The notes beneath the pieces were generated by a model that saw nothing but the letters and a program-made list of their open reading frames with translations, had not been told where the DNA came from and did no database searches. A stretch of DNA of 52,181 nucleotides from Atopobiaceae bacterium (GTDB lineage Bacteria > Actinomycetota > Coriobacteriia > Coriobacteriales > Atopobiaceae). Made by a program: the position numbers and the translations under genes. Of the stretch, positions 15,270 to 20,669 are shown one piece after another (position 1 is the first letter of the stretch; each line of letters opens with the position of its first letter). The stretch covers positions 1 through 52,181 of the forward strand of contig JAFWMI010000299.1 in assembly GCA_017513965.1 (NCBI GenBank), given 5' to 3'.

Positions 15270-15345
15270 GGCTGGGTAGCTCAGTTGGTAGAGCAGGGGA
15301 CTGAAAATCCCTGTGTCAGGGGTTCGACTCCCTTCCCAGCCACCA
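15270..15345 (+). tRNA. tRNA-Phe (GAA)
   Basis: The 76 nt fold as a standard cloverleaf: acceptor GGCTGGG with CCCAGCC, D-arm GCTC-AGTTGGTA-GAGC, anticodon loop CTGAAAA with GAA, T-arm AGGGG-TTCGACT-CCCTT, and an encoded CCA end. Its 3' 45 nt form part of the 56-bp duplicated attachment sequence, so the gene stays intact next to an inserted element. Confidence 0.97.
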
Positions 15346-15356
15346 GTGATTCTCCG
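15301..15356 (+). repeat. attL, 56-bp direct repeat
   Basis: Identical to 20614-20669. It begins with CTGAAAATCC in the anticodon arm, runs through the tRNA 3' end and ends 11 nt beyond the CCA. The base before and the bases after differ between copies. Confidence 0.95.
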
Positions 15357-15404
15357 CAGGTAGATGCATATATTTGCACTACCTGCTTTCTTTTAGAATT
15401 ATTC

Positions 15405-15456
15405 TGGCACCACACATAAGCACCATAACTGGCACCAAGGCACGGTTTTTGGTGCC
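15405..15456 (+). repeat. Left array of GCACCA motifs (probable integrase arm sites)
   Basis: Three GCACCA units at about 12-13 nt spacing (15407, 15420, 15432) are nearly the same as an array at 20466-20503 near the other end. The third unit also forms an inverted repeat GGCACCAA/TTGGTGCC (15431-15438, 15449-15456). Direct repeats set near both att sites are typical of arm-type sites bound by the N-terminal domain of tyrosine integrases. Confidence 0.6.
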
Positions 15457-15905
15457 AAAGCGGTGTGCAACCCCCTCATGAGAAAGCGGCAACACAGCGC
15501 AAAAGTGCCGTGCCTCCATCGGTCTGCCAACAAGGATTGTTTGAGGCAATGGTGGGGGGTGTGGTGCATGTCCATGATGCAAAGCATTTCCCTCACCGAA
15601 CCAAATGGAAACGCACAGAATCAATTCTAAGGGGTGTTTGGAGGCAAGCACGATACACATTAGCCATTGGGATTGCATCGCGTCTCAGAGACAAGTGTGA
15701 AGCCCGCAAAACGGTTAACCGCAGGTTTGACGGTTTGGGTACCCCCTACCCCCTAGAATAGGCATCGCCCAAACAGGGACCGGTGCAGGGCATAAATTTA
15801 TTCGCACGTGGTAGTTTTCCAAATCCAAAAAATCCGCACTGCCTTTCTTGGATTGTCGCAGCTTATTCATTGCTTTGGTGCTGTTTCGCATCGAGGCACA
15901 AATGA

Positions 15906-15933
15906 GGGGTGCCGCCACTTAGAGCGGCACCCC
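15906..15933. repeat. Stem-loop in the element's non-coding end
   Basis: GGGGTGCCGC (15906-15915) pairs perfectly with GCGGCACCCC (15924-15933) across an 8-nt loop. There is no T-tract on either side, so a structural role (origin or nick site) is as likely as a terminator for the leftward operon that ends at 16072. Confidence 0.6.
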
Positions 15934-15977
15934 AGCCCACTAGAGAAACCTATGTTATGGCATATATATACGAAAGG

Positions 15978-16104
15978 GGTGAGCTACGTCACCATGCAAA
16001 CGCGCGAAACACGGCAAATCATGGTGAGCTAGGTCACCATGTAAGCCTGTTTTTGCCGTCAGCATGGTGAGCTACGTCACCATGTCATGGTGAGCTACGT
16101 CACC
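15978..16104. repeat. Four iterated palindromes GGTGA-GCTACG-TCACC (iteron-like)
   Basis: Copies lie at 15978-15996, 16020-16041, 16063-16084 and 16086-16104. Each has the arms GGTGA/TCACC around GCTACG (GCTAGG in the second), usually extended to CATGGTGA/TCACCATG. Starts are 45, 43 and 23 nt apart, and the last two overlap the 3' end of the winged-helix gene. Spaced identical palindromes beside a replication-like gene and an AT-rich stretch resemble an iteron origin; a regulator's operator cluster is the alternative. Confidence 0.75.
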
Positions 16105-16581
16105 TGCTTTTTGTTTTTTCGCCCTGTGCTCTTCGATTAGCATGTGTGTGCTTTTGAGTCCGTCTGGCATCGAGAACGCAGGCGTACCGTAGTGGTGCCA
16201 GCGTGAGGACAGGCGGTATAGGTTACGCTCCCGTGTAGCCAGCCCGCTAGAGACACAATCCACAAGACCGTGCGCTATCAGAGCCGCCATGTCACGCGCA
16301 AACCCTCGTTTGTCGCTTTGCCCATAGAGCCTGTACTTTGTTGTGTACAGCCCTCGATTCATGTAAAACAGTCGCTCGTCACCCTCGCCGCCATCAATGG
16401 CATTGTCACGCATAGCCGCACCGTGCGACTCACGACAACAGTACAAGTACAACGTCTTTTGCTTAGCCGTGAGGCTTGTGTACGCCTCGCTGTCTAGTAG
16501 ATCGTAATACATTGCTGCGAACCCGCTCTTGCCCTTCGGTCTGCGCTGCCAGCTTTTTACGGGTTGCTTGCGCCTTGGCAC
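16072..16581 (-). CDS. Winged-helix replication-initiator-like protein of the element
   Basis: The 169-residue basic protein contains FAAMYYDLLDSEAYTSLTAKQKTLYLYCCRE, which resembles the N-terminal winged-helix of phage replisome organisers and plasmid Rep proteins (F-x-x-hydrophobic-LL-S-x-A-x-x-L-S/T). The rest (GFARDMAALIAHGLVDCVSSG) continues the winged-helix pattern. The start is GTG at 16579-16581, preceded by GGGGAGGTGAGG. It is the last gene of the leftward operon, separated from the 68-residue gene by an attenuator-like hairpin. Four iterated palindromes overlap its 3' end. Replication initiation is inference; it could be only a DNA-binding regulator. Confidence 0.55.
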   Translation of the reverse strand: MPRRKQPVKSWQRRPKGKSGFAAMYYDLLDSEAYTSLTAKQKTLYLYCCRESHGAAMRDNAIDGGEGDERLFYMNRGLYTTKYRLYGQSDKRGFARDMAALIAHGLVDCVSSGLATRERNLYRLSSRWHHYGTPAFSMPDGLKSTHMLIEEHRAKKQKAGDVAHHDMVT

Positions 16582-16599
16582 TATGCCTCACCTCCCCAA

Positions 16600-16635
16600 C
16601 AAAATGCGGGTGGGACAAATGAACGCCCCACCCGC
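16600..16635 (-). terminator. Attenuator-like hairpin inside the element operon
   Basis: GCGGGTGGG (16606-16614) pairs with CCCACCCGC (16627-16635) with a 12-nt loop. On the minus strand ATTTTGTT follows. It lies just before the ribosome site of the winged-helix gene, so it could limit read-through into that gene. Confidence 0.6.
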
Positions 16636-16651
16636 TCGAATCGCACGGCGG

Positions 16652-16858
16652 CTAAACCTCGCGCAACTCCTGTACGAGACTCCTTAGGTCGTTGCGCGCC
16701 ACTGCGGCATTGGTGTAGTGGTCGATTGCGAACGCATCGCTACGCATCGACTCGGCATCGAGTACCACCGACATACGGTCAATGATTGCGTCGAGACGGT
16801 CGGCTATCGCGCAGCCATTGACGTTGGCGTTTCGTGTAAGCGTGTTTGTATTTGCCAT
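16652..16858 (-). CDS. Small hypothetical protein of the element (68 aa)
   Basis: The product MANTNTLTRNANVNGCAIADRL... is a short, acidic, probably helical protein (AIADRLDAIIDRMSVVLDAES). I recognise no family. The ATG at 16856-16858 follows AGGGGAAAAG; a longer in-frame version would overlap the preceding gene and has no better site. It lies in the leftward operon between the 180-residue unknown gene and the replication-like gene. Confidence 0.6.
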   Translation of the reverse strand: MANTNTLTRNANVNGCAIADRLDAIIDRMSVVLDAESMRSDAFAIDHYTNAAVARNDLRSLVQELREV

Positions 16859-16928
16859 CTTTTCCCCTTTCGGTTTGCACCCTATTGGCACGAACCATTC
16901 GTAAACTTGCTTGCGTATACCCGTTCGG

Positions 16929-17471
16929 CTATCGCTCTTCAGCAATTCGCGCAAGCTCTCCAAGCAGTGGATGCAGCGCGGGAATGTCCCAAACGCACGG
17001 ATTCATTCGTAGCTTGTCCGCCTTGTCGGGGTGCAGGATTGCCAGCGTTCGAGCGATAACGGGATTCAAGTCGTTTGACAGGCGAACGCGACGCTTTTGC
17101 CGTTGTCCCTGCAAGTCCCGAATGCCGACAAAACGCAAGTGATACACCAGCACGTTTCCCGAAACCTCGTTGTCGTTGGCTGTCTCGGCAAGCTCAAGGA
17201 ACCCGCCCTCAAACCACCGAAACACGTTGGGGTTCGATTTGAACCACTCGCGCAATCGTGGGTATTTCACAAGCCTTGCCTTACTCACGTCTGCCTCGGC
17301 ATAGACTCGCCCTGTTTGGTCGGCATATTCCTCGTTGGCCTCGTCGGTGGTATCATTGGTGCCAGCGTCCGAACCATTGAGTTTAAATCGGCTCATTTGG
17401 TTCTCGTTCTGTCCGTCGTGCTGCTCTCCGCCAAGATTGCCAGCACGACGGGGTTCTTTATCTCTAGGCAT
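16929..17471 (-). CDS. Hypothetical element protein (180 aa)
   Basis: The first 55 residues are polar and disordered-looking (NLGGEQHDGQNENQ, DAGTNDTTDEANEE). The rest is a compact domain with KYPRLREWFKSNPNVFRWFEGGFLELAE, VLVYHLRFVGIRDLQGQRQKRRVRLSNDLNPVIARTLAILHPDKADKLRMNP. I recognise no family; the repeated Trp/Phe and basic patch may indicate nucleic-acid binding. AGGGG precedes the ATG, and it follows the 55-residue gene by 2 nt, so the two are translationally coupled. As the largest unknown in a very small element it is a good candidate for its special function. Confidence 0.7.
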   Translation of the reverse strand: MPRDKEPRRAGNLGGEQHDGQNENQMSRFKLNGSDAGTNDTTDEANEEYADQTGRVYAEADVSKARLVKYPRLREWFKSNPNVFRWFEGGFLELAETANDNEVSGNVLVYHLRFVGIRDLQGQRQKRRVRLSNDLNPVIARTLAILHPDKADKLRMNPCVWDIPALHPLLGELARIAEER

Positions 17472-17642: not shown

Positions 17643-17867
17643 CTACACCTCCAAGCCTAGAACGTCGTGCAAGAAGTAGTCGCGTGGCACACGCCACGTG
17701 TTACCAACTCGCACGCCTTTGATGGTGCCTCGCTCAAGTTGGTTAAGGATGTGCCGCCTCGAACAGTTGGCAATCTCAGCTACCTCATTGGTCTTGAGCA
17801 TCACGGCTAGGTCGGTGGTGCTCGTGCGTGGCGTGGTAGGGATGTACCCTACTGCGGATTGGCCCAT
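17643..17867 (-). CDS. HTH_17 (MerR-like) excisionase-type DNA-binding protein
   Basis: The 74-residue protein contains LKTNEVAEIANCSRRHILNQLERGTIKGVRVGNTWRVPRDYF, the standard helix-turn-helix 17 / excisionase signature. Such proteins bind DNA as small winged-helix units and act as recombination directionality factors or regulators in integrative elements. The start at 17865-17867 follows AAGGGGG. It is the first gene of the leftward operon and has a GAGTGG-GAAA-CCACTC palindrome 22-38 nt upstream. Its place far from the integrase is unusual for a classical xis. Confidence 0.85.
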   Translation of the reverse strand: MGQSAVGYIPTTPRTSTTDLAVMLKTNEVAEIANCSRRHILNQLERGTIKGVRVGNTWRVPRDYFLHDVLGLEV

Positions 17868-18175
17868 ATGCCATTCCCCCTTTGGTCGTGAGTGGGAAAC
17901 CACTCAGATTGCATTACGCGAAACTCGTGCTTCGCTCGGCATGCAATTTACATCAGGGAATGTAACGAATCAAGCCGTCTACCTGCGGTTATAACTAAAT
18001 GCGTGCGCATTGTAATGGGCGTTTTGGGCATGTGCGTGCGCTTGTGTCGCGCATGCCACGGCAACATGCGACTATGGCTGGCGTTCGTGCGCGACGAACT
18101 GCCGCGATTGTCTCGTTAGGTTCCGTTCCGTCGCGCAGAGGATATGATTTTGATAGTTAACAATCTGGTAACAAA
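17868..18175. other. Intergenic region with operon promoter and operators
   Basis: This holds the upstream region of the leftward operon. A palindrome GAGTGG-GAAA-CCACTC lies at 17890-17905 and a TACCTGCGG motif at 17980-17988. The rest (18000-18175) shows no gene; the HTH regulator gene ends at 18176. Confidence 0.5.
17890..17905. promoter_or_regulatory. Palindromic operator candidate upstream of the excisionase-like gene
   Basis: GAGTGG and CCACTC flank GAAA. The centre is about 30 nt upstream of the start codon, overlapping where the promoter or 5' end should be, and could be bound by the element's HTH regulator. Confidence 0.5.
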
Positions 18176-18700
18176 TCAGCTCAGGTCGATGTAATCCCAG
18201 CTCTTGCAGCGGTCTATGACGTCTCTTAGCTGTTCGCTCAAAAGCTCGCACGCCATCGCATGCCCTTCCTCGCGCCCACCGCTCTCAACTGCGCAAACCA
18301 TTTGCAGCACTGTTCTTTGCTGCTCTTCGTCGAGCGTAAGGAAGTGTGCGACTAGCTCAAGCGTTCGCGCCTTTGCCGCCTCAAACGTCGCATCGAAACA
18401 CTTTGCTGCGTCATGGTCGTACCCAAGAAACTCGTCCGTCAGTCTGCCCATGTCCGCATTCAAACCGTTGCACACTCGCATGTAAACGCCATACGTCATG
18501 AGGTGCGGGTGCCTGAATGCGTTGCATGAGCGTAGCGTACTCTCTGGTACTCCCGTTGTGTTCGCCAACTGCCGCTGTGAGGTTATGCCGCACTCATCGT
18601 AGAGCCTCGTTAGCACCTCGTCCCACTTGTCCGCGCTCTCCTGCGTTCCACCGCCCCAAACCTCATAGAGCCGCCTGTTGTGTATCGGGTTCCGTACCAT
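18176..18700 (-). CDS. HTH regulator of the element (XRE-like, probable repressor)
   Basis: The 174-residue protein has SADKWDEVLTRLYDECGITSQRQLANTTGVPESTLRSCNAFRHPHLMTYGVYMRVCNGL, a helix-turn-helix of the XRE/Cro type (SQRQLANTTGVPESTL as helices 2-3). A helical C-terminal region with FLTLDEEQQRTVLQMVCAVESGG may dimerise. GGGAGC precedes the ATG. Its position between the leftward operon and the integrase side suggests a maintenance repressor; the palindrome at 17890 would be a target. The family match is moderate. Confidence 0.65.
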   Translation of the reverse strand: MVRNPIHNRRLYEVWGGGTQESADKWDEVLTRLYDECGITSQRQLANTTGVPESTLRSCNAFRHPHLMTYGVYMRVCNGLNADMGRLTDEFLGYDHDAAKCFDATFEAAKARTLELVAHFLTLDEEQQRTVLQMVCAVESGGREEGHAMACELLSEQLRDVIDRCKSWDYIDLS

Positions 18701-19206: not shown

Positions 19207-20445
19207 CTATCCTTCGGTGCCAGTTGCCCTTATGGTGATAACGGGTGCGTCAGCGTTTGGGCGCATGTATGCGCCGCTGTGTTCGGCGGCTGCTTTCTTT
19301 CCGGTGCGCAACGCACTTGCATATGTGTCCACGGTCATTTGCGTGGAGCTGTGTCCTGCGTTGTCGGCAACGTCGCGAACGCTTGCACCCGTCGCAAGCT
19401 GTGCGGTTACGAAGCTGTGTCGCAGTGCGTGGAAGTTGACGCGCTCCCCAGACGTCCCCACAAGTCCCCACGCGCTAGACAGGCTTGCCCACTGTCGGCT
19501 AATAACCGTAGGCACAGCCCAGCCGCCATCGACGTTGCCGCAAACGTACAGCTCATCAAAACCAGTGATGCAGTTGTCGCGCTGCTCAAGCATCATGTTG
19601 CGCCGCCTCTTGAGCATGTCGGCAAGTTGGTTTGTGTCGAAGTCCACCACGCGAACCTTACCCGTCTTTGTTGACTTGTAATAGCTCCCGCCCTTGCCAA
19701 CTCCGATTGCGCCGCGAACGGTGATTGTGCCCGCCTCAAAGTCAACGTCACGCCAACGAAGTGCGCACGCCTCCGCACAGCGCAGCCCACAATGCAGGGC
19801 AATGTAAGACGCAACAACAACGGGTGTTGTCTGCATCGACTCAAGCTGTGCCGTCACGTATTGCATGCCTTCCCTTGTGAGGCTGTTCGGCTCCTTCTTT
19901 GGCATTGATGGCGGGGTGACACGTGCAACGGGATTAACGTCTACGACTTCCTCCTTAATGGCATACTCAAAGACCAGGTGCAAAAGACGGTGACATTTGC
20001 GCACTTGGTAGACGCTCATGCCCTTCTCAAGCTGCCTACGCTCCCATTCGCGAACCTGCTTTGTGGTTACGTCGCACAAAGCAACCTCCCCAATGCTGCC
20101 AAGACGTGCGATGGACTTGCGATAATCCAAGACGGTTGAGCGCTCAAGCATGCGCATGCCATCAACTTGCACGCTCTCACGCATGGCAATGTATGCCTCT
20201 GCATACTCCGCAACGCTTATCTTGGCTTGCTCAGGCTTTGCCGCCTCTGCGTTCATCTCATCATGCCAGATGTGCAAAGCCTTGGTTGCCTGTGTCTTGG
20301 TGCGAACCTCGGCACCAAACGTCTTTGCGGTCTGCTTCCATTTGCCGTCTGCATCCTTGTACTTCAAAACGCCCTTCCACGCCCTGCGCTTGCCGTCCTT
20401 GCCCTTTACCTCCCGCAACATTGAGCTTGTGTACTTTGCCGCCAT
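19207..20445 (-). CDS. int: Tyrosine site-specific integrase
   Basis: The 412-residue protein has an N-terminal arm-binding-type domain (about 1-60), a SAM-like core-binding domain (about 75-175) and a catalytic domain. Catalytic residues are visible: Arg222 (GLRCAEACALRW), His339 and Arg342 (FHALRHSF), His365 (GHSS) and nucleophile Tyr375 (VDTYAS). It should recombine the 56-bp att sites in tRNA-Phe. GGAGG lies 7 nt before the ATG at 20443-20445; the frame is open 14 codons upstream through the repeat array, which argues against the longer start. Its 5' end faces attR, 169 bp away. Confidence 0.95.
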   Translation of the reverse strand: MAAKYTSSMLREVKGKDGKRRAWKGVLKYKDADGKWKQTAKTFGAEVRTKTQATKALHIWHDEMNAEAAKPEQAKISVAEYAEAYIAMRESVQVDGMRMLERSTVLDYRKSIARLGSIGEVALCDVTTKQVREWERRQLEKGMSVYQVRKCHRLLHLVFEYAIKEEVVDVNPVARVTPPSMPKKEPNSLTREGMQYVTAQLESMQTTPVVVASYIALHCGLRCAEACALRWRDVDFEAGTITVRGAIGVGKGGSYYKSTKTGKVRVVDFDTNQLADMLKRRRNMMLEQRDNCITGFDELYVCGNVDGGWAVPTVISRQWASLSSAWGLVGTSGERVNFHALRHSFVTAQLATGASVRDVADNAGHSSTQMTVDTYASALRTGKKAAAEHSGAYMRPNADAPVITIRATGTEG

Positions 20446-20465
20446 CTCTTTGCCTCCGTCCGAAT

Positions 20466-20503
20466 TGGCACCACACGCTAGCACCAAACTAGCACCACAA
20501 GGA
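20466..20503 (+). repeat. Right array of GCACCA motifs (probable integrase arm sites)
   Basis: Three GCACCA units at 20468, 20481 and 20492 closely match the left array at 15405-15443, including TGGCACCACAC at the start. They overlap the integrase promoter region, so integrase could regulate itself by binding here. Confidence 0.6.
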
Positions 20504-20613: not shown

Positions 20614-20669
20614 CTGAAAATCCCTGTGTCAGGGGTTCGACTCCCTTCCCAGCCACCAGTGATTCTCCG
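20614..20669 (+). repeat. attR, 56-bp direct repeat
   Basis: Identical copy of 15301-15356, containing the tRNA-Phe 3' half but not the 5' half, so no tRNA is made from here. Confidence 0.95.

Follow-up and report, generated by a model that had tools for sequence, protein, structure and literature searches.

The iterons of RepA_N plasmids sit close behind the region that encodes the DNA-binding domain. Among integrated elements, PICI origins lie directly 3' of rep, and terS can come next (PMC6092414). In the PLE satellite of Vibrio cholerae, RepA is a non-enzymatic RepA_N initiator acting on semi-palindromic iterons, with a DNA-binding domain that covaries with them (PMC7145576, PMC8263062); its N-domain is represented by structure 4ro3 (PMC7145576), and the diversification of the origin has been tied to a phage nuclease that targets it (PMC8263062). 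Here we analyse a 52,181-nucleotide stretch of DNA from an Atopobiaceae bacterium (hereafter the window) that contains a mobile element with four dyads beside an AT-rich block. We read these dyads and this block, with a probability of roughly 0.7, as the origin from which a minimal integrated element resembling phage satellites replicates.

The element measures 5.3 kb, encodes a tyrosine integrase and lies between two 56-bp direct repeats on the plus strand, attL (15301-15356, consisting of the tRNA-Phe 3' end plus 11 bp) and attR (20614-20669). Its integration target is the tRNA-Phe(GAA) gene at 15270-15345 on the plus strand, identified with ARAGORN and Rfam; the tRNA was the only match in the Rfam search. 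In L076, a sister genome from the same genus, the upstream genes are shared, and a terminator-like hairpin comes straight after tRNA-Phe with no element in between; this empty site together with the att repeats establishes the element as a real integrated mobile unit.

All element ORFs between the att repeats are on the minus strand. The 426-aa tyrosine integrase (19207-20487; Pfam PF00589, E 1.7e-18) lies nearest attR, followed by a 174-aa CI-like HTH protein (18176-18700), probably the element repressor on the basis of weak profile matches, and an 86-aa excisionase/AlpA-like HTH_17 protein (17643-17903), recognized through Pfam PF12728, PHROG excisionase families and a counterpart in a related element. 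Beyond these are a 180-aa ORF (16929-17471), a 103-aa ORF with no function assigned (16652-16963) and a 169-aa winged-helix protein (16072-16581), assigned by alignment and predicted structure, which is the proposed replication initiator that would bind the dyads. The repeat TACCTGCGG occurs at 15354 (inverted), 17980, 19148 and 20587, that is, at both element ends and in the interior, and GGCACCA/AGCACCA repeats lie near both ends (15406-15451 and 20467-20491); both kinds of repeat are probably integrase or excisionase arm sites. PADLOC returned nothing convincing. With an integrase, an AlpA-like gene and no capsid genes, the element resembles the PICMI of Vibrio, which are ~6 kb in size; PICMI replication involves a primase (PMC10803314), whereas none of the ORFs tested in the window element and its relatives matched a primase or helicase profile.

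The array itself consists of four exact 16-bp matches to GGTGA-N6-TCACC, which we number in the direction of the 169-aa gene and give on the minus strand. Dyad 1 (16089-16104, GGTGACGTAGCTCACC) lies within the 3'-terminal part of the winged-helix gene, dyad 2 (16066-16081, GGTGACGTAGCTCACC) covers its stop codon, and dyads 3 (16023-16038, GGTGACCTAGCTCACC) and 4 (15978-15993, GGTGACGTAGCTCACC) are past the stop. Three of the four are identical across the 16 bases and the remaining copy carries a one-base change. Their spacing is 45, 43 and 23 on the plus strand, or 23/43/45 when read in the direction of the gene. The sequence-only reading of this DNA had listed four copies at this spacing, and that description holds in full; it had also placed the repeats across the end of the winged-helix gene, which is true of two of them.

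Several comparisons indicate how unusual the array is. Allowing up to one mismatch, GGTGA-N6-TCACC matches at five places in the 52 kb, where shuffles lead one to expect 1.5. Scored at its fixed spacing, the array reaches 93, the maximum among 500 dinucleotide shuffles being 45 (0/500 close). Across the whole 3.5-Mb genome the motif is present at ten places, the six outside the array being scattered singletons with different cores, and no second array was found elsewhere in those 3.5 Mb.

Among 395 genomes of the order, the 169-aa protein was found in four others (loci L010-L013), MAGs of Eggerthellaceae, Coriobacteriaceae and Atopobiaceae, in which the winged-helix protein is 50-63% identical to that of the window. 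Three of these loci are complete ~5-kb elements with similar kinds of genes, L010 in tRNA-Ala and L012 and L013 in tRNA-Phe, and L011 stops at a contig end, inside terS. The window and L011, which holds the HTH_17 counterpart mentioned above, share the gene order int, CI-like, HTH_17, winged-helix gene, array; in L010, int and the repressor gene are divergent from the rest. The window integrase is 36% identical to that of L012. The 180-aa ORF resembles, over its C-terminal 35 aa only, a 125-aa L012 protein (L012:4615-4992, phrog_13625) encoded just before the winged-helix gene, and these proteins are possibly partners in replication or regulation. To the left of the L012 element, L012:1769-2222 contains a tandem of three imperfect copies, at intervals of 161-172 bp, the last of which enters the attachment site, along with further matches to the tRNA-Phe 3' end, as if integrations or their remnants were stacked there.

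In all five near-family loci the winged-helix gene is followed by the array, with four repeats at the same place in L010-L013. Of 91,125 spacing triples, 23/43/45 is the best in the window and, separately, in each of the four relatives. The letters of the repeats differ, from GGTGA-N6-TCACC in the window to CTGC-N6-GCA(C/G) in L011-L013 and a weaker, only weakly palindromic dyad ending in GCACC in L010. What is invariant across the near-gapless array alignment is a self-complementary 22-bp element, CATNNTG-N8-CANNATG, from which the outermost half-sites of the array depart; dyads 2 and 3 of the window with their flanks are perfect copies of it (16063-16084 and 16020-16041), and in all loci scanned perfect matches are confined to the arrays. 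A CGTATAT 5 bp past the last 16-mer is likewise kept. Because the arrays of L012 and L013 are almost the same and that of L011 differs little, these loci amount to three independent array types (window, L010 and L011-L013), to which the distant locus described below can be added. Looking for repeat conservation in relatives had been suggested beforehand as a check, and its outcome is that position, spacing, dyad core and CGTATAT are kept while the letters have changed. The sites are therefore better described as 22-bp dyads with strict and asymmetric spacing than by the earlier label "iteron-like", which is loose.

Two other interpretations of the dyads were rejected. RNA hairpins or terminators were set aside because the arms become shorter in the relatives at unchanged spacing. 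The form GGTGA-NNTANN-TCACC also looks CRP/GlxR-like, an idea that was dropped because the array tracks the winged-helix gene across relatives while its letters change.

A profile search of other Actinomycetota yielded a single distant homologue, L065, which is 24% identical overall and whose best-matching segment has E 1.8e-7; it is on a contig so short and AT-rich that its genome-bin placement is uncertain. Behind the stop codon of this gene are three perfect 16-bp dyads, CTACTACTTTTAGTAG, at spacings of 24 and 36, and then TATATATA. The layout of gene, 16-bp dyads and AT-rich block thus recurs in L065 with wholly different letters, and the HTH_17 protein is present in all of the elements, L065 included. 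Searches of viral contigs, phage records and plasmids found no relatives, the phages giving tRNA matches only, and widening the search through the integrase led to other elements, with neither the winged-helix gene nor the array. Weak winged-helix matches at two further loci, L059 and L070, lay in other reading frames and were dismissed as noise.

The AT-rich block at 15960-15972 (GCATATATATACG; CGTATATATATGC on the minus strand) begins 5 bp past the last dyad, includes the conserved CGTATAT and is a candidate unwinding element. Duplex stability reaches its minimum for the entire element in the 20-bp step at 15951-15970, beside the last dyad; L010 and L012, however, have AT-rich stretches elsewhere whose stability is lower than that of the stretch beside the array, which counts against an origin. 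As in iteron origins, four equal dyads stand next to AT-rich DNA (CGTATATATATG), and this arrangement is kept in the relatives. Published PICI origins differ in having two repeat sets that flank the AT block; here there is one dyad set on one side, and no second iteron set was found past the block. Further along, at 15906-15933 on the minus strand, is a GC-rich stem-loop with an 11-bp stem, probably a terminator-like hairpin, for which no counterpart was seen after the array in the sequence of the relatives. We rejected it as a component for this reason, and it is probably not part of the origin, so that of the AT-rich DNA and strong stem-loop originally placed beside the array, only the former is retained.

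The 169-aa protein falls in no Pfam, PHROG or NCBIfam family and had no match in a PDB sequence search; nor did it or two of its relatives match the RepA_N sequence profile in an hmmscan of Pfam-A at E up to 1. Its AlphaFold2 model is a winged helix (mean pLDDT 60.5), and residues 25-128 of this predicted fold align with the RepA_N N-domains 4pql, 4pt7, 5kbj and 4pta. Foldseek likewise placed the N-domains of RepA_N initiators first (4pql and 5kbj, with 4pt7 further among the hits), but at E 0.15 or worse. VIA-align gave Z scores of 7.5 for 4pql, 7.3 for 4pt7, 6.8 for 5kbj, 6.3 for 4pta and 6.0 for the PLE domain 4ro3, values in the range of 6-9 that is common for a small winged helix, from a model with a pLDDT of ~60; generic winged helices score equal to or above the RepA_N domains, those of ORC2 reaching 8-9. 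A second structure model, of the L065 protein, was discarded (pLDDT 39.5). The predicted winged-helix fold fits an origin-binding protein but is no proof of one.

The RepA_N plasmid initiators of pSK41 and pTZ2162 are alike in this predicted fold and in having dyad iterons close behind the coding region of the DNA-binding domain, and unlike in that the protein described here has no Pfam match and no C-terminal domain. As to the semi-palindromic repeats that go with RepA_N initiators and converge on an A-tract, dyads are present in the window, L011-L013 and L065, and an A-tract (a central TTTT) in L065 only.

The DNA behind the array is variable. In L012 and L013 the next gene is a terS of phrog_1595 (E 1.6e-12), which also begins in L011; in L010 it is an unrelated phrog_2412 protein; and in the window and L065 no recognizable gene follows. 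Such variable downstream content ties the array to the winged-helix gene and not to what follows. Moreover, an array that persists without terS, in elements whose repressor-like proteins show no similarity (window and L012), disfavours both a terminase site and a repressor operator, and makes the winged-helix protein the likely binder of the dyads, as judged from these sequence comparisons. Near the far end of two relatives, after terS or its replacement, are genes for proteins of 225 aa (L012:6270-6947) and 190 aa (L010:5989-6561) that are candidates for helper interference or packaging.

The chief rival of a replication origin, which we consider unlikely, is that the winged-helix protein is no initiator and instead regulates transcription of late or packaging genes such as terS from the four dyads. 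Winged helices are common regulators, the next gene begins within ~70 bp of the array in all four of L010-L013, the array is upstream of a packaging gene in relatives, and CGTATAT could belong to a -10 element. However, the copies are most alike and most regular in the window, the element without terS, where, as in L065, there is no recognizable gene to regulate behind them; no sigma-70-like promoter was found in 15350-16700; and the genes downstream in L010 and L012 are unrelated to each other. It would also be unusual for an operator to have a strict four-site layout of 111 bp where the gene of its own regulator ends.

It is highly improbable that the array is a packaging signal (pac/cos-like) bound by the terminase small subunit. 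Packaging sites often adjoin terS, and the position of that gene directly behind the array in L012 and L013, and its start there in L011, would suit such a signal, but the array is kept where terS is missing (window and L065) or swapped for an unrelated protein (L010). It accompanies the winged-helix gene every time, and no terS was found in the window element, nor any terS relative in its genome. That genome does have terminase large subunit matches at three loci (G000:C46, C26 and C9; L071-L073), which mark possible prophages and potential helpers.

We give still less credence to the idea that the HTH_17 protein or the CI-like repressor uses the array as its operator or control region. Proteins of these kinds bind dyads, and HTH_17 occurs throughout the elements, but the layout of the array is alike in the window and L012 despite their dissimilar repressors, and the operon separates the array from the xis and repressor genes, which lie far away at its other end. 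Finally, palindrome arrays beside small winged-helix genes are known from partition systems, and TubR does appear low in the Foldseek list, but a centromere-like site for a TubR/ParR-style adaptor has almost nothing to recommend it, as no ParA, ParM or TubZ NTPase gene was seen in any of the elements and partition would be of little use to an integrated 5-kb element.

A replication origin, by comparison, is the reading with the most support, which comes from the conserved 23/43/45 spacing, the linkage to the winged-helix gene, the adjacent AT block, the PICI-like gene order and the RepA_N-like predicted fold; the original proposal of an origin inside an integrated element thus survives without its stem-loop. 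We infer DNA binding, unwinding, replication after excision and helper dependence along the following lines. The integrase and the HTH_17 protein would excise a 5.3-kb circle. The 169-aa protein, whose gene runs into its own binding sites, would then occupy each 22-bp dyad as one homodimer, and four dimers held at the fixed spacing may bend or remodel the DNA, opening CGTATATATATG. A helicase and a primase of the host or of a helper phage would be loaded at the opened AT stretch; neither a primase nor a helicase could be recognized among the element's own proteins. The terS behind the module in relatives suggests packaging by a helper phage, and the element is assigned to a satellite-like family with relatives that carry this gene directly behind the array, a point that had escaped the sequence-only reading.

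Set beside the rep-ori modules of PICIs (SaPI, EcCI; PMC6092414), the locus has the same order of int, repressor, xis-like gene, rep-like gene and origin 3' of rep, with terS in relatives, a likeness that holds for gene order alone, the roles of the winged-helix gene and array being putative here. It also shares repeats adjoining an AT-rich block, and site-specific chromosomal integration through an integrase and att sites, in this case in tRNA-Phe. It is unlike PICIs in its small size, in the lack of a primase or helicase-type Rep, and in its Actinomycetota host (with relatives in Coriobacteriia), for which no helper phage is known. The closest functional parallel, by analogy, is PLE RepA with its iterons: both are satellite-type, with few semi-palindromic sites whose letters shift with the DNA-binding domain, and the likeness in fold is a predicted one. 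PLE differs in that its RepA includes a distinct C-terminal domain, its three ~30-bp iterons occupy an intergenic region of their own, and its integrase is a serine enzyme; in the window the protein has 169 aa, the four 22-bp dyads fall where the gene that encodes it ends, and the integrase is of the tyrosine type. The literature that we searched contained no description of such satellites in Coriobacteriia, an absence that is no proof of novelty.

More tentatively, the module could be an undescribed type of minimal replicon, in which the initiator is a winged helix of ~155-170 aa that stands alone, lacking a catalytic or any second domain, and is encoded just upstream of, and partly overlapping, an asymmetric four-dyad origin. 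The 23/43/45 geometry would be fixed and the specificity letters of each CATNNTG half-site would drift with the protein, in 5-kb satellites of Coriobacteriia and, in a distant version, in another lineage of Actinomycetota. If this is right, it would provide a very small initiator/origin pair for little-studied gut and rumen bacteria, a marker for satellites that searches based on primase or capsid genes miss, and a natural series in which initiator and origin change letters jointly at constant geometry.
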